Of a stretch of DNA of 64,000 bases, positions 27,506-64,000 are shown one piece after another (within the stretch, counting starts at the first letter, position 1; each line of letters begins with the position of its first letter). The translations under genes and the position numbers were made by a program. The DNA is taken from assembly GCF_011317445.1 (NCBI RefSeq), contig NZ_JAAAPL010000001.1, positions 1,240,001 to 1,304,000 on the forward strand, read 5' to 3'. The notes under the pieces are model-generated. The model worked only from the letters and a program-made list of their open reading frames with translations. It was not told the DNA's origin and did not search any database. Source of the DNA: Chelativorans multitrophicus. Its GTDB lineage: Bacteria; Pseudomonadota; Alphaproteobacteria; Rhizobiales; Rhizobiaceae.

Positions 27506-28555
27506 ATGAAAGTGTCTTTCGTCTCCACCAGCGCGATCTCGCAGACGCTCCGCTACCAGATGATGCGGATGCAGGCCGACCTGGTGAAAAACCAGAAAGA
27601 GCTCGACAGCGGACGATTGGCGGACCCCGGCGCTACGCTCGGCGCCCGCGCCGGTTTCAGCTTCTCCATGGACCGCGAGATCTCGCGATTGGAGAACGTG
27701 ATCGACGCCAACAGCCTTGCCGCCAACAGGCTTACCGCCACTCAGAATAACCTTACGCAGCTGACCGACATCAGCCAGGAACTGCTCGCCACACTGTCGG
27801 CAGCCCTGTCCGGCGTGAACGATACCTCGATCGTGAAAAGCGGAGCGACGCGCGCCCTGGAGTCCATGACCAGCGTGCTCAACAGCAATTTCAATGGCGA
27901 GTATTTGTTTGCCGGCATCAACACCGATGTGAAACCCATCAATGATTTCACCGATCCTGCTTCGCCCAACAAAGCGCAGTTCGACGCTCAGTTCCTGGCA
28001 TTCTTCGGCTTTGCCCAGAACGATCCGGCCGCAAGCGGCATAACCGCGTCTCAAATCGAGGATTTTCTGGACACGGTCATCGAGCCCGCCTTCATGGGGA
28101 CCGGCTGGAGCGACGCCTGGTCTGGTGCATCCGATGAGAAGATTACCAGCCGTATCGCCGCCAATGAAACGGCCGAGACATCCACCACCGCCAACGGCGC
28201 CGGGATGCGCAAGCTCGCCATGGCCTCCGCCGTGCTATCTGAGTTTCTGGAGATACCGTTGGGCGATGAGGCGCGCCAAACGCTTTATCAGCGCACCACC
28301 AGCCTTGTCGGCGAGGCCATTCCGGCCATCGCATCCGTTCAAGCGGAGGTCGGTCTGGCCGAGACGCGCCTTCAGGATGCGACCGACCGAATCTCGTCAC
28401 AGATCGACCTTTTCAAGACATTCATCCGTGATCTGGAGGGTGTCGATCCTTACGAGGCGTCGACCCGCGTGAACGAGATCCTGACGCAGATCGAGCTCTC
28501 CTACGCGCTCACCTCGCGCATCCAGCAACTCAGCCTCCTCCGGTATCTGCCGTAG
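27506..28555 (+). CDS. flgL: Hook-filament junction protein FlgL
   Basis: FlgL (HAP3) is the second hook-filament adapter and is a flagellin-like protein. The 349 residues have the N-terminal helix MKVSFVSTSAISQTLRYQMMRMQADLVKNQKELDSGRLADPG and the C-terminal repeat of flagellin D0 character. The segment NFNGEYLFAGINTDVKPI is typical of FlgL. It starts one base after flgK. Confidence 0.94.
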   Translation: MKVSFVSTSAISQTLRYQMMRMQADLVKNQKELDSGRLADPGATLGARAGFSFSMDREISRLENVIDANSLAANRLTATQNNLTQLTDISQELLATLSAALSGVNDTSIVKSGATRALESMTSVLNSNFNGEYLFAGINTDVKPINDFTDPASPNKAQFDAQFLAFFGFAQNDPAASGITASQIEDFLDTVIEPAFMGTGWSDAWSGASDEKITSRIAANETAETSTTANGAGMRKLAMASAVLSEFLEIPLGDEARQTLYQRTTSLVGEAIPAIASVQAEVGLAETRLQDATDRISSQIDLFKTFIRDLEGVDPYEASTRVNEILTQIELSYALTSRIQQLSLLRYLP

Positions 28556-58527: not shown

Positions 58528-59368
58528 AATGCGCTGGCGTGGAGGTCACGATTTCGCCGTCGGCATTGACGGGCATGGGTGCCTCCGTCTCGATATCGAA
58601 TTCCACGCATTTCGCCGTCCGCACCTCATTCCACGCACCATGTTTGCCCGTGCGGAAGGAGCGCAACATCAATGCGAGCTTCCAGAGATTTTTCATCTCG
58701 AGGCTGTAAAGATCGAGATGGCCGTCGTCGATCTCGGCGTCTTCCTGTACGACATTGCCGCCACCGTAATGGACGCCGTTGCCTACCGCTATCTGATAGG
58801 TATCGACCTCGATCGCCTGGCCCTTCTCCACGATACGGGCCTTGAAGTGTCCCGACTTCGCCAGAACGCGCAGTGCGGCAATTGCATAGCCGAGCCGGCC
58901 GAAACGCTTTTTCAATGCCGGATCCAACCCCTTGGCCAGTTCACTGCTGAGCCCGATGCTGGCTACATTGAAGAAGGCGTGCCCATTGACGGTGCCAACG
59001 TCGACCCGCCGCTCCTTGCCCTTGACGATCACATCGGCGGCCGCCGTCAAGTCCATGGGTATGTCGAGAGTGCGAGCCAGATCGTTGGCCGTCCCCAGCG
59101 GAATAATGCCCATCGGGAGGCCACTTTCCATCACAGCGAGCGCCGCCGAGGAGACGGAGCCGTCACCACCGCCCACGACGATAAGATCAGCCCGCTTACG
59201 CAGGCGCATGATATCGCGCGCGATCTCGGGGAGCGCTTCGAATGGCTCGAAGGCGACCGACAGACCGCCCTGCTGAAGGCGCTGCATGACCGGCTCGATC
59301 GCTTCCTGGCCACGGCGGGCTTTGTTGTTGACGAGGAGGAGTGCGCGCCTTTGTTGTGCTTCGGTCAT
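58487..59368 (-). CDS. Diacylglycerol/lipid kinase family protein (YegS-like)
   Basis: A 293-residue DAGK catalytic-domain protein: VVGGGDGSVS at about 65-73 (the phosphate-binding loop), PLGTANDLARTL at 90-101, and the C-terminal conserved YGGGNVVQEDAEIDDGHLDLYSL. Such enzymes phosphorylate diacylglycerol, phosphatidylglycerol or sphingolipid-like lipids. The 41-base tail overlap with the MocR gene is between converging genes. Confidence 0.9.
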   Translation of the reverse strand: MTEAQQRRALLLVNNKARRGQEAIEPVMQRLQQGGLSVAFEPFEALPEIARDIMRLRKRADLIVVGGGDGSVSSAALAVMESGLPMGIIPLGTANDLARTLDIPMDLTAAADVIVKGKERRVDVGTVNGHAFFNVASIGLSSELAKGLDPALKKRFGRLGYAIAALRVLAKSGHFKARIVEKGQAIEVDTYQIAVGNGVHYGGGNVVQEDAEIDDGHLDLYSLEMKNLWKLALMLRSFRTGKHGAWNEVRTAKCVEFDIETEAPMPVNADGEIVTSTPAHFKVHPKAISVFAP

Positions 59369-59452
59369 ATCTGTCCCAAGGTTTCGATGCAGCTCAAATA
59401 GGAACTCCCTCTTGGAAATTCGACAGCAGCCCGGCTGGTTGGAGGTAAGTGT

Positions 59453-59512
59453 ATGAAAGTGAACCTGCCGAAGAGGCGCTCTCCGCGCACTGCAGAAGCA
59501 GCGCGATTATAA
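59453..59512 (+). CDS. Possible 19-residue leader peptide
   Basis: An ATG with a strong GGAGG ribosome site eight bases upstream opens a 19-codon frame (MKVNLPKRRSPRTAEAARL) ending in TAA. It is basic and has no known relative that I can name. The good ribosome site is the main evidence; chance remains likely. Confidence 0.25.
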   Translation: MKVNLPKRRSPRTAEAARL

Positions 59513-59902
59513 TCGATTCCGGCGTGAAAATTTTTTCAAGTTATAGTTGTGGGCTATTTAAATATAAGCGGTGAATCGGGCCATAAGGGGTGCGTCAGAT
59601 CGAACTGCCGCAACTCAAGGCGATCAAGATGCACCAAGAAGACAACAATGCACCAGGGCAACGAAAGAAGTCGTTTCTTTGGTGGCATGACTTCAGCCAA
59701 GCACGGAGCGATGCTCGAAGGGCAAAAATGACTCTGTACGGGCGTTCCCACGTGAAGAGGTGCAGACAACGCCTGCTCGAGCGGTATGAAGAAAGCTGGC
59801 CCACTCGAGCTCCGGGCCGGCTTACCCTGCCTCCTCGGCTTGGCATCTCAGGTACCAGGAAGAGGAAGCTTGGCAGCCCTTAGCGCTGCGCATGAGCGAT
59901 AG

Positions 59903-60199
59903 CCGGTCCTCCCGCCCCCCGGACTGGCTTGGTCCAAGGCCCCGTTCGGGCAAGCAATTGTCTGAAAACGGGGCCTTGGAACCCCTGATAGTGCCGCACG
60001 CCTGCGGCAAGCAATGTCGGTCCTCCCGCCCCCCGGACCGACTCTTACCAAGGTCCTGCTCCAAGCGACTGGCTGGAGCGGGACCTTGGAACCCTGATAA
60101 TGCCGCACGCCTGCGGCAAGCAATGTCGGTCCTCCCGCCCCCCGGACCGGCTTACCCAAGGCCCTGCTCCGGCAAGCGATTGTGGGAGCGGGGCCTTGG
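59903..60199. repeat. Tandem array of three hairpin units (possible small-RNA array)
   Basis: Three units spaced 114 and 109 bases share the core GGTCCTCCCGCCCCCCGGAC. Each core folds (arms GGTCC and GGACC, or GGAC-TGG in unit one) with an 11-base C-rich loop (TCCCGCCCCCC). Each unit then has a long stem: CCAAGG...CCTTGG (59934-59979, 60048-60089, 60156-60199). Between units lies GCCGCA-CGCC-TGCGGC (59993-60008 and 60102-60117). Pairing survives sequence change: the second stem is GGTCC/GGACC where the first and third have GGCCC/GGGCC-type pairs. The motif GGCAAGCAATTGT or close forms recur in loops and joints. No T run follows the stems. Confidence 0.8.
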
Positions 60200-60279
60200 A
60201 ATAGCAAAGCGCGCATCCTCCCTATCCACCGATGGGAGGTCCCGTTATTTTCAGCCATCCCGCATGAAATGGATGGCCC

Positions 60280-60612
60280 ATGTCCCCCACAAGCTTTGCG
60301 CTTCTAACACTCTCCACGATGATCTTCATCGCAGCTGCCAGCTCAGCCAAGAACTGGGCCATTTCAAACGACAACTTCGTCTGGCTCATACTCACGCTGG
60401 TGCTCTATACGATCGGCAACCTCATTATGCTGAGGCTGATCCGCGATGTTGGAATGGCAATCGCGCTCAGCCTCTCGGCCGTCGTGCAGCTTGTTGCGGT
60501 GAACGCGGTGGCGCTTTTCTTCTTCGGCGAGCGAATTACCCTGTTTCAGGGAGCCGGCCTTCTTCTTGCCGTCATCGCCGTCACGTTGATCACTCTGCCG
60601 CTGGGGGAATAA
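60280..60612 (+). CDS. Small DMT/SMR-like membrane protein
   Basis: The 110-residue product has four hydrophobic helices and resembles one EamA/SMR domain (VLYTIGNLIMLRLIRDVGMAIALSLSAVVQLVAVNAVALFFFGERITLFQGAGLLLAVIAVTLI). The FFGERIT...G segment is the usual end of a DMT repeat. It would work as a dimer in the inner membrane. It stands alone between the repeat array and the tRNA gene. Confidence 0.8.
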   Translation: MSPTSFALLTLSTMIFIAAASSAKNWAISNDNFVWLILTLVLYTIGNLIMLRLIRDVGMAIALSLSAVVQLVAVNAVALFFFGERITLFQGAGLLLAVIAVTLITLPLGE

Positions 60613-61841: not shown

Positions 61842-62120
61842 ATGTCTCTGCGCTTAGTCTGGCGGAGAACATGGGATGATCGGCCTCAGGATTTCATCTG
61901 CTTCGCACCGGGCTTGGATGAATCGGTTGGCCGTATCTACAGCACCCTAAAGCCGGGAACGCTCGTCAAGCAGTGGAGATGGGCCGCCAACGGGTACATA
62001 CCTGACCGGCGCATGTGGTTGAGCCAGGGCGGCTTTGCTGACACAAAGATGGAAGCAGCCAAGGCCGTAGAGGAAGTGTATTTCAGGGTGATGGGGGAGA
62101 AATGCGCGTCCCAAGAATAA
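61842..62120 (+). CDS. Phage-like hypothetical protein
   Basis: A 92-residue protein, unrecognised, with a tryptophan-rich sequence (VWRRTWDDRPQDFICF; VKQWRWAANGYIPDRRMWLSQGG). An ATG five bases earlier is out of frame; AGGAGAG precedes the start. Its end overlaps the next gene by 19 bases. Confidence 0.55.
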   Translation: MSLRLVWRRTWDDRPQDFICFAPGLDESVGRIYSTLKPGTLVKQWRWAANGYIPDRRMWLSQGGFADTKMEAAKAVEEVYFRVMGEKCASQE

Positions 62121-62299
62121 AGCCGCCGTCTCAGGAGGAGATCGTTCGCAATCTCGTCTGCGAAATTGAATTAGGCGTTCAGTGGGAAGACGCTACCGAA
62201 GATGAGCGGGAGTGCGTGCGCTTGAGAATGGAAGAGATAGCCGCATTTCCTGAAATGAATGTGTGGCCTACTCACCTGCCGGGGAAGACGAGGCAGTAA
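62102..62299 (+). CDS. Phage-like hypothetical protein
   Basis: A 65-residue acidic protein (PPSQEEIVRNLVCEIELGVQWEDATEDERECVRLRMEEI) with no recognised family. It overlaps the previous gene and meets the next, minus-strand gene tail to tail at 62299/62300. Confidence 0.5.
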   Translation: MRVPRIKPPSQEEIVRNLVCEIELGVQWEDATEDERECVRLRMEEIAAFPEMNVWPTHLPGKTRQ

Positions 62300-62464
62300 C
62301 TAATCCAGCTTCCGGGGTATCCAGCGCAGGCTGCTTGTGGCCTGCATGGCAAGCTCCAGCACTTCAATGAATGACAGTTCGGTGATCTTCAGGCCGTCAT
62401 GCATCAGTTCCCATTTGGGCTGATTGCCTTCCATCGATACGCGGATATGGACGCGGTTAGTCAT
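62300..62464 (-). CDS. Small hypothetical protein coupled to the metallophosphoesterase gene
   Basis: A 54-residue protein (MTNRVHIRVSMEGNQPKWEL onward) whose ATG at 62464 shares its first base with the preceding TAA stop (TAATG). It is therefore probably translated with the metallophosphoesterase. No function is known to me. Confidence 0.5.
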   Translation of the reverse strand: MTNRVHIRVSMEGNQPKWELMHDGLKITELSFIEVLELAMQATSSLRWIPRKLD

Positions 62465-63453
62465 TAGGAAAATCGCTCCTGCAAGTCGAGCATTGAGATA
62501 AAGCTGGCGCTTTCGACGCGGCCTCCCCGCAACCGCAAATCTGCGATGCCGTAGGAGTAACCCGTTGTGCAGCCATCGGCGTAGTTGGGGATGTAGCCGT
62601 AGGGCATTGCACAACCCACGTTCGTCACGGTGATCGAATTGTTGATCCCGATCTTCGGCACGGTGACGTGGTTGTACCGGTGGGTATGGCCGAAGACGAC
62701 AGAATGCGTGGATTGGTTGCCGATGGTGTTTTCCGGGTATCTGCCGCCCACCGGCTTTCCCATGATGCTCAGGGGAACGTGGGTGAAGCCGACGCCTTCA
62801 AGGAACATCCAGTGCTTGTAGGGGGTAATGGCCCACCTGTAGCGGGAGAAAAGCTGATCGATCTGGATAGTGACTGTGCCGGTCAGATTGGGGGCAAGCT
62901 CCTCAAGGCGATTGGCGCGAAACTCATGGTTCCCCAGCGTTACGTGGTGCGGAATTTCCCCTACCCCGACTTCCTTATGGTACTCGCTCAGGGATTCATC
63001 GCCGTGGTCGATCTCATCCAGAACGCAGGGCCGCTGCATTTGCGCAGCAGAGCCGGGAGCGCTGTGAAATTCGCAGCTCTCCATGTCTAAAAAGTCGCCA
63101 ATCTGAATGACATTATCGGGGCGCGTCTCAGCCACATACCGGCCAATGAAGCGCATGATTTCTATCGGTTGTCCCGGCTTGCGGTGCATGTCACCGATGC
63201 AGATCACACGCCGCGCCTGCAGTTCCCGCGTCATATTGGGGTTGTAGGCCCTGACGCGAATGCGCGGCTTACCGGTGCCAAGGTCGCCCAGGTCCGGAGT
63301 GTATTGGACTTCCTCACGCGCCTTCTTCACATACTTACGTACGCTGCTTTCCGCTACGCCGTGAATCCTGCCTGTCTCTCTGAAATTTCCTGTCTCCCTA
63401 TAGGTCTGGATGATCTTCTGGATCGTCTCATCATCGAGAGAGGGGATTTTCAT
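62464..63453 (-). CDS. Phage-type metallophosphoesterase with N-terminal HTH
   Basis: The 329 residues comprise a helix-turn-helix-like start (about 8-45: ETIQKIIQTYRETGNFRETGRIHGVAESSVRKYV) and a calcineurin-like phosphoesterase domain with the metal motifs GDMH (87-90), GDFLD (119-123), GNHE (174-177) and GHTHR near 255. Such proteins in phages may act as nucleases or phosphatases. The start overlaps the protease stop (ATGA). Confidence 0.85.
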   Translation of the reverse strand: MKIPSLDDETIQKIIQTYRETGNFRETGRIHGVAESSVRKYVKKAREEVQYTPDLGDLGTGKPRIRVRAYNPNMTRELQARRVICIGDMHRKPGQPIEIMRFIGRYVAETRPDNVIQIGDFLDMESCEFHSAPGSAAQMQRPCVLDEIDHGDESLSEYHKEVGVGEIPHHVTLGNHEFRANRLEELAPNLTGTVTIQIDQLFSRYRWAITPYKHWMFLEGVGFTHVPLSIMGKPVGGRYPENTIGNQSTHSVVFGHTHRYNHVTVPKIGINNSITVTNVGCAMPYGYIPNYADGCTTGYSYGIADLRLRGGRVESASFISMLDLQERFS

Positions 63454-63995
63454 CAGGCACCCCGCGCAAGGAGGTCACAAACAACGCGGCCTGGTACAAC
63501 GTAGCCCACACCCACCAGCGAGGCCGAGAAACCAACCGGCGCGACCATGACGCCAACGGTGATTCCGATTAGACGCCCTTGGGTGTCGAAAACACCGCCG
63601 CCGCTCTGACCCGGCACTGTTGCAATGTCCGTTATAACCACGGACTTCCACGGCCCAGCCTCACGGACGGAATCGGCTATGCGGCCCCACACAGTGATGA
63701 ACTCGGCATTGATGGGGTTGCCCTTGGCAATCACCTCATCGCCCACGGAAGGGACGGTGCAGGCGAGCCGGGACATTCCTAACCCAGACCGATCCGAGAC
63801 ACGCAAGAGCGCGATGTCGTAAGCCTTGTTGGCCCACAGCACGACTGCTTCGGCCTCGCCCCCGGATGATGTCTTTAGCTCAACCTTCTCGGCAGTACCC
63901 ACCACATGGGATGCGCTGATGATATAGCCGTCCCCGATGTGAACGCCTGAGCCGTGGCCTGCGCCAACGATGATCTTCACCACGGAATCAGCCAT
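63453..63995 (-). CDS. Trypsin-like serine protease
   Basis: A 180-residue chymotrypsin-fold peptidase with the full triad: His30 (IISASHVVG), Asp60 (AYDIALLRV) and Ser131 (PGQSGGGVFD). It has no signal peptide and no PDZ domain, so it is a cytosolic single-domain enzyme, unlike DegP. It is coupled to the metallophosphoesterase gene by an ATGA overlap. Phage-encoded proteases of this type might process virion or host proteins; the target is unknown. Confidence 0.85.
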   Translation of the reverse strand: MADSVVKIIVGAGHGSGVHIGDGYIISASHVVGTAEKVELKTSSGGEAEAVVLWANKAYDIALLRVSDRSGLGMSRLACTVPSVGDEVIAKGNPINAEFITVWGRIADSVREAGPWKSVVITDIATVPGQSGGGVFDTQGRLIGITVGVMVAPVGFSASLVGVGYVVPGRVVCDLLARGA

Positions 63996-64000
63996 GGCGG

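Follow-up and report, generated by a model that had tools for sequence, protein, structure and literature searches.

The window analysed here, a 64,000-nucleotide stretch of the Chelativorans multitrophicus genome, carries three tandem two-hairpin units on its forward strand at positions 59899-60202, with start spacings of 114 and 109 nt (Table 1). Each unit is composed of a first hairpin of the form GCCGGTCC - TCCCGCCCCCC - GGACCGGC, or a near form of it, followed a few bases on by a second stem (CCAAGG...CCTTGG) of approximately 16-24 pairs when units from several loci are folded singly, leaving out a unit of locus L022 that is cut short. TRF called the array at 59904-60201 (period 109, 2.7 copies, 80 % matches), the other of its two rows in the window being a 15-nt unit present in 2.3 copies at 27706-27740. 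Folding of the 306-nt array strand gave -187.9 kcal/mol vs -125.5 ± 6.1 in shuffles (z -10.2, 0/100). TRF, repeat spacing and folding uphold the three-copy tandem array of C-rich-loop hairpins and long stems described in the original prediction, as does the pairing-preserving change it pointed out, stem 2 reading AAGGTCC/GGACCTT in unit 2 but AAGGCCC/GGGCCTT in the other two. Its placing of CCTCCC in the loop stands in part: the unpaired C-rich loop is TCCCGCCCCCC, but the CC of CCTCCC lies within the stem, leaving the anti-Shine-Dalgarno (anti-SD)-like string partly in the loop.

The array is preceded by a promoter-like box and a leader frame and followed by a small transporter-like gene, which is possibly co-transcribed with it. 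A search of 59300-60400, around the array, identified neither an intrinsic terminator nor a sigma-70 consensus promoter. A tRNA-Thr(GGT) lies no more than 7 kb from the RNA in 10 of the 14 loci of the genus, the window included. Beyond the tRNA-Thr of the window, positions 61842-64000 hold phage-like genes (a metallo-phosphoesterase, phrog_221, a protease, phrog_9683, and phrog_12188), which may belong to the margin of a prophage or island.

Table 1 Features of the array locus, and the ar14 genes of the same genome
Feature	Position	Strand	Details
Conserved promoter-like box CTATTTAAATATAAG, core ATTYNNNNATAA	59554..59568	+	Shared upstream of 24/24 loci
Leader frame, 84 aa, basic (20 R+K, 7 D+E)	59629..59883	+	Same length in G002
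Possible decayed fourth unit	59792..59861	+	Stem 1 kept, loop lost; overlaps leader frame; CM R1 23.7 bits, weak
Unit 1	59899..59982	+	Hairpin 1 59901-59929, loop 59910-59920; stem 2 about 59933-59980; CM R1 86.3 bits, folding
Spacer hairpin 1, GCCGCA-CGCC-TGCGGC	59993..60008	+	Read from sequence; like spacer in G002
Unit 2	60013..60092	+	Hairpin 1 60016-60042, loop 60024-60034; stem 2 60048-60089; GGTCC/GGACC compensatory change; CM R1 77.5 bits
Spacer hairpin 2	60102..60117	+	Read from sequence
Unit 3	60122..60202	+	Hairpin 1 60125-60151, loop 60133-60143; stem 2 about 60156-60199; CM R1 80.7 bits
Small transporter gene, EamA/DMT-like, 110 aa	60280..60612	+	Pfam EamA E 1.7e-5, 25.5 bits, below the 28.2 cut-off
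ar14 (RF02344) genes, same genome	L144 (G000:C8:658500-660700), L145, L147		T-runs at all three

To search for relatives we built a covariance model, R1, from 21 of the 23 units then known, leaving out two of other loop length (L027 and the first unit of L031), both of which the model later found. BLAST of the array matched 14 of 61 genomes, all from one genus, while the covariance search located the RNA in 14 of 16 genomes of the window's genus (the Chelativorans/Nitratireductor group) and in all ten genomes of a sister genus. In a sample of the family the covariance search found it in 14 of 394 genomes and two of 109 genera. The hairpin pattern GRYCYTCCCGCCCCCCGGRYC occurred in 14 of 394 family genomes and in one of 397 order genomes, the window's own, with 0 for the reversed control among the matches listed; a second model matched one of 385 class genomes, again the window's own. 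The RNA was not found outside the two genera in these family, order and class samples, where few candidates were scored under strict filters or the exact pattern, which misses unit 1 of the window, was needed, so that distant ones could have been overlooked. G011 and G012, which belong to the genus but are without the RNA, returned nothing at E up to 5, an empty answer that alone shows nothing. The homologues expected in other Rhizobiales do exist, although they are limited to two genera of one family.

All units matched at E up to 1e-6 were fitted to the covariance model, giving an alignment of 33 units from which five weak matches were excluded (four antisense to the array, the fifth being the decayed unit of G002). 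Of 791 paired cells 96.0 % pair, and in 15 of the 24 pairs both partners change in one or more sequences (69 such cells), values reached in 0 of 500 shuffles. The covariation score was likewise reached in 0/500 shuffles and the number of pair types in 3/500; kin sequences can beat such shuffles without structure, the measures that count pairs or types being safer. Pairing in slid registers was at most 58.9 %. A MAFFT alignment of 21 units gave 95.0 % pairing with 14 of 24 pairs changed on both sides (0/500 shuffles). The check by covariance model that the original prediction had named thus returned both matched-pair changes and homologues in related genomes. G-U cells outnumber A-C cells by 70 to 16 among the 33 units, counts that would swap on the other strand, and the plus strand is therefore the RNA. 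The 11-nt loop, UCCCGCCCCCC, is exact in 32 of the 33 units (in one of them it is preceded by an extra T), with G009 alone differing. A protein-coding repeat was rejected: the plus frame shifts phase between units (VLPPPG in unit 3 against RSSRPPD in the first two) and in relatives (GPPAPRTG in L019). Selection on structure as opposed to protein, as had been proposed, agrees with this shift and with the RNA-level covariation over relatives, and we are highly confident that the array is a selected RNA element.

Every matching genome has a single locus (24 loci in total). There are five units in G002, three in the window and in G015, two in G014 and one in the other 20 loci. In a tree of the 33 units the eight units of the window and G002 share one fork (94/84) within which their later units group together (98/95), and part of the expansion therefore precedes the split of the two. 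Three of the G002 units are 96-99 % identical. The two units of G014 pair (84/73) and the three of G015 fall in an unresolved fork, the pattern suggesting that copy number was likely gained separately in each of these genomes. A possible decayed fourth unit lies upstream of the window array (23.7 bits with R1, E 1.9e-4 in 821 bases with filters off), a call that is weak because antisense stem 2 matches score as much (28.8 and 23.3 bits). The direct repeat at 59798-59827 is 77 % like unit 3, and a weak match similar to the candidate occurs in G002 (L020:8301-8385).

The core of the upstream box, ATTYNNNNATAA, is present once in the 420 nt before the first hairpin, 141-352 nt upstream of it, in each of the 24 loci. 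One such core was present in 96 of 12000 mononucleotide-shuffled regions, the pattern having been drawn from the same loci, and the rest of these loci, searched on both strands over 428954 bases, has seven. The longer form CTATTTNNNNATAAG has 14 occurrences, spread over ten of the 16 genus genomes, nine of which have one at the array; the window's own genome has two occurrences, one of which is at the array. We infer from this conservation that the box may be the promoter of the array RNA.

Between box and array, the leader frame showed a dN/dS of 0.37 between the window and G002, against 0.62 and 1.46 for the other two plus frames and 0.44-1.01 for the other strand; in a longer reading the two leaders share 49 % identity across 91 residues. 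Leader frames at the same place in G001, G003 and G007 gave 0.39-0.43. The other plus frames of these leader pairs gave 0.62-2.26, and the leader frame was the lowest of the three plus frames each time. The 21-aa leader frames at four sister-genus loci (0.45-0.79) gave no clear signal. The leader frame of the window has no match in Pfam or NCBIfam. As its dN/dS is the lowest of the plus frames, the leader may encode a small protein under weak constraint in some members of the genus.

A small gene on the same strand follows the RNA in 21 of the 24 loci, at a distance of 53-64 nt in 16 of them. An EamA-like gene lies 77-125 nt 3′ of the last unit in five of the 14 loci of the genus, the window among them. 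Six of the 14 and all ten sister-genus loci have a 69-79-aa protein with the motif DLDLLxECKxxHP, here termed DLDLL-type, 53-64 nt past the unit (L053:1238-1447 on the minus strand, with homologues in L019, L021-L023, L025, L029, L054-L058 and L064-L067). This protein has no Pfam match where scanned (L053; G237), and for the G237 copy NCBIfam gives only a sub-threshold RecX match. Neither type of gene was found downstream in G009 and G010; in G009 a tRNA-Thr lies on the other strand ~55 nt downstream of the RNA. In G008 an EamA-like gene is located upstream of the RNA on the other strand.

At gathering level the tRNA-Thr was the sole Rfam match in the window and the array went unmatched, while the relaxed mode returned seven sub-threshold matches around the array. 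A ZTP riboswitch match at 60055-60124 scored 23.2 bits vs a gathering level of 39 and was taken as chance. Clusters of CCTCCTCCC in the same genome led to three RF02344 ar14 genes (90.0, 88.3 and 65.2 bits; Table 1), and the array's lack of an RF02344 match is informative because the same search finds the family at these three other loci. The ar14 gene of L144 directly follows a DUF1127 frame (Pfam E 4.4e-18), as in the CIN1/cuckoo layout. Two CCTCCTCCC motifs and a hairpin with a T-run are present in L146, which gave no Rfam match. Both L146 and L147 carry ATTGTGCATTGCAATATC ahead of their CCTCCTCCC motifs, and this may be the conserved promoter motif of ar14 RNAs that has been reported for NfeR1.

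In design the array resembles the ar14 (RF02344; NfeR1/Smr14C2) and cuckoo RNAs of the Alphaproteobacteria, in which hairpins with one fixed C-rich loop and variable stems are arranged as modules in series. RNAs with three and four hairpins bearing CCUCCUCCC have been described, with blocking of the ribosome binding site (RBS) proposed (PMC3927594), and the ar14 sRNA NfeR1 silences mRNAs at the RBS (PMC10746234). The shared loop on variable stems is present here, but more than one unit is found in just four of the 24 loci. Unlike these RNAs the array has the loop UCCCGCCCCCC and not CCUCCUCCC, the second stem of its unit is without such a loop, its last hairpin lacks a U-tract terminator whereas the ar14 loci have T-runs, and it gives no RF02344 match, the ar14 loci being separate in the same genome.

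The tandem homologous units and the small basic frame ahead of the window array recall CcsR1-4/CcaF1 at the CIN1 locus of Rhodobacter sphaeroides, where the CcsR RNAs are cut from a precursor shared with the DUF1127 gene ccaF1, with an RpoHI/HII promoter and a terminator at the end (PMC10253847). However, no terminator was found here and the window leader frame has no DUF1127 match; among the proteins scanned, DUF1127 was absent from this frame, the window downstream gene and the G237 downstream protein. AbcR1/2 (ar15) share with the array anti-SD-like unpaired motifs and tandem genes (PMC7143759), but theirs are CU-rich motifs in 114-120-nt Hfq-binding RNAs, and the array is without an Rfam match. 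The tandem modular layout noted in the original prediction is borne out, whereas the suggested link to the ar14/cuckoo families is not: the array is without a gathering-level Rfam match, CCUCCUCCC, a terminator or DUF1127, and genuine ar14 loci lie elsewhere in the genome. A literature search by loop string gave no title on this RNA family among the matches listed, and one on sRNAs in the two genera yielded no sRNA study of the group, its single match being on Paracoccus. The array thus represents a new RNA family, restricted to its lineage, that shares the ar14/cuckoo design without belonging to that group.

Our first choice for its function, which we put at just short of an even chance, is a trans-acting, RBS-blocking sRNA with a C-rich loop, cut from a precursor. 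Transcription from the conserved box would yield a single precursor with one to five copies of the ~80-nt two-hairpin module. The strong second stem, which lacks a U-tract, would insulate each module and mark its 3′ end, the modules being released by processing and not by intrinsic termination. The 11-nt loop of each module could then pair in trans with G-rich RBSs of the GGGAGG type and block translation, more copies giving a higher dosage. In favour of this reading are the covariation, the strand signal, the fixed loop, the box at 24/24 loci, the presence in 14/16 and 10/10 genomes, the copy number of 1-5 and the RBS silencing described for sRNAs of like design such as NfeR1. Against it, the 13-base loop complement GGGGGCGGGAGGA, allowing at most one mismatch, had 208 matches in the 16 genomes of the genus (array antisense included) vs 277 for the reversed control, and with no enrichment only a short seed is left for trans pairing. 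The partial base-pairing of the anti-SD-like string and the same-strand small gene at 21/24 loci are further points against an sRNA.

That small gene is central to the main rival of the trans-acting sRNA, in which the hairpins form a cis-acting leader, controlling the downstream gene from its 5′ UTR, with Rho-dependent attenuation at the C-rich loops they expose as one conceivable mechanism. Its presence in 21 of 24 loci, the near-constant 53-64 nt in 16 of them (the whole sister genus included) and the EamA-like protein 77-125 nt past the last unit in five of the 14 genus loci are what such a leader would predict. There is also a precedent in S. meliloti, where a C-rich, uORF-dependent attenuator precedes a DUF1127 gene (PMC12218461), a C-rich leader ahead of a small gene as here, although that C-rich element lies inside a translated uORF while in the array it is a hairpin loop past the leader frame. 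Yet the downstream gene differs between lineages when the RNA does not, and G009 has an opposite-strand tRNA-Thr ~55 nt downstream. Across the 24 loci the loop had no overall pairing to its own leader (mean z -0.29) or to the 150 nt downstream (+0.21), though five single values are near -2 to -3. A loop conserved to the base exceeds what Rho would be expected to need. We regard the cis-acting leader as a possible but doubtful account.

An identical loop on changing stems with variable copy number would be expected of a protein-binding site no less than of a pairing seed, and the copies could act as a decoy that titrates a sequence-specific binding protein, as CsrB-type RNAs titrate CsrA. A single unit in 20 of the 24 loci is poor for titration, and CsrA sites need a GGA that the loop does not contain; we consider such a decoy improbable. 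The tandem palindromic units could also be read at the DNA level, as an array of binding sites or a REP-like mobile repeat, an explanation that is largely refuted and to which we give very little weight. Each genome has one locus, the array has no match among plasmid and phage sequences, the G-U wobbles are strand-specific, and the loop is kept where the stems are not. In the window's own genome the motif, with up to two mismatches allowed, occurs five times, and its three exact occurrences all lie in the array. The scattered mobile repeat that the original prediction had named as its refuting case was accordingly not seen.

Returning to the trans-acting sRNA, we tentatively propose, as a fuller and more speculative picture, a lineage-born regulatory RNA with a near-invariant 11-nt loop on free stems, whose module count of one to five would be tuned by tandem duplication between species and whose regulon would be reached through short G-rich RBSs, independently of the ar14 RNAs of the same cell. 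Where a small basic leader protein precedes it, as may be so in some members of the genus, the layout would be CcaF1-CcsR-like without a DUF1127 protein. The array adds an RNA family with clear covariation that is unmatched in Rfam 15, and places a C-rich-loop RNA, apparently not derived from ar14, beside the ar14 type. Its countable copy number (1, 2, 3 or 5 units) means that near relatives could be compared to test why tandem sibling sRNAs exist, whether for dosage or for division of labour.
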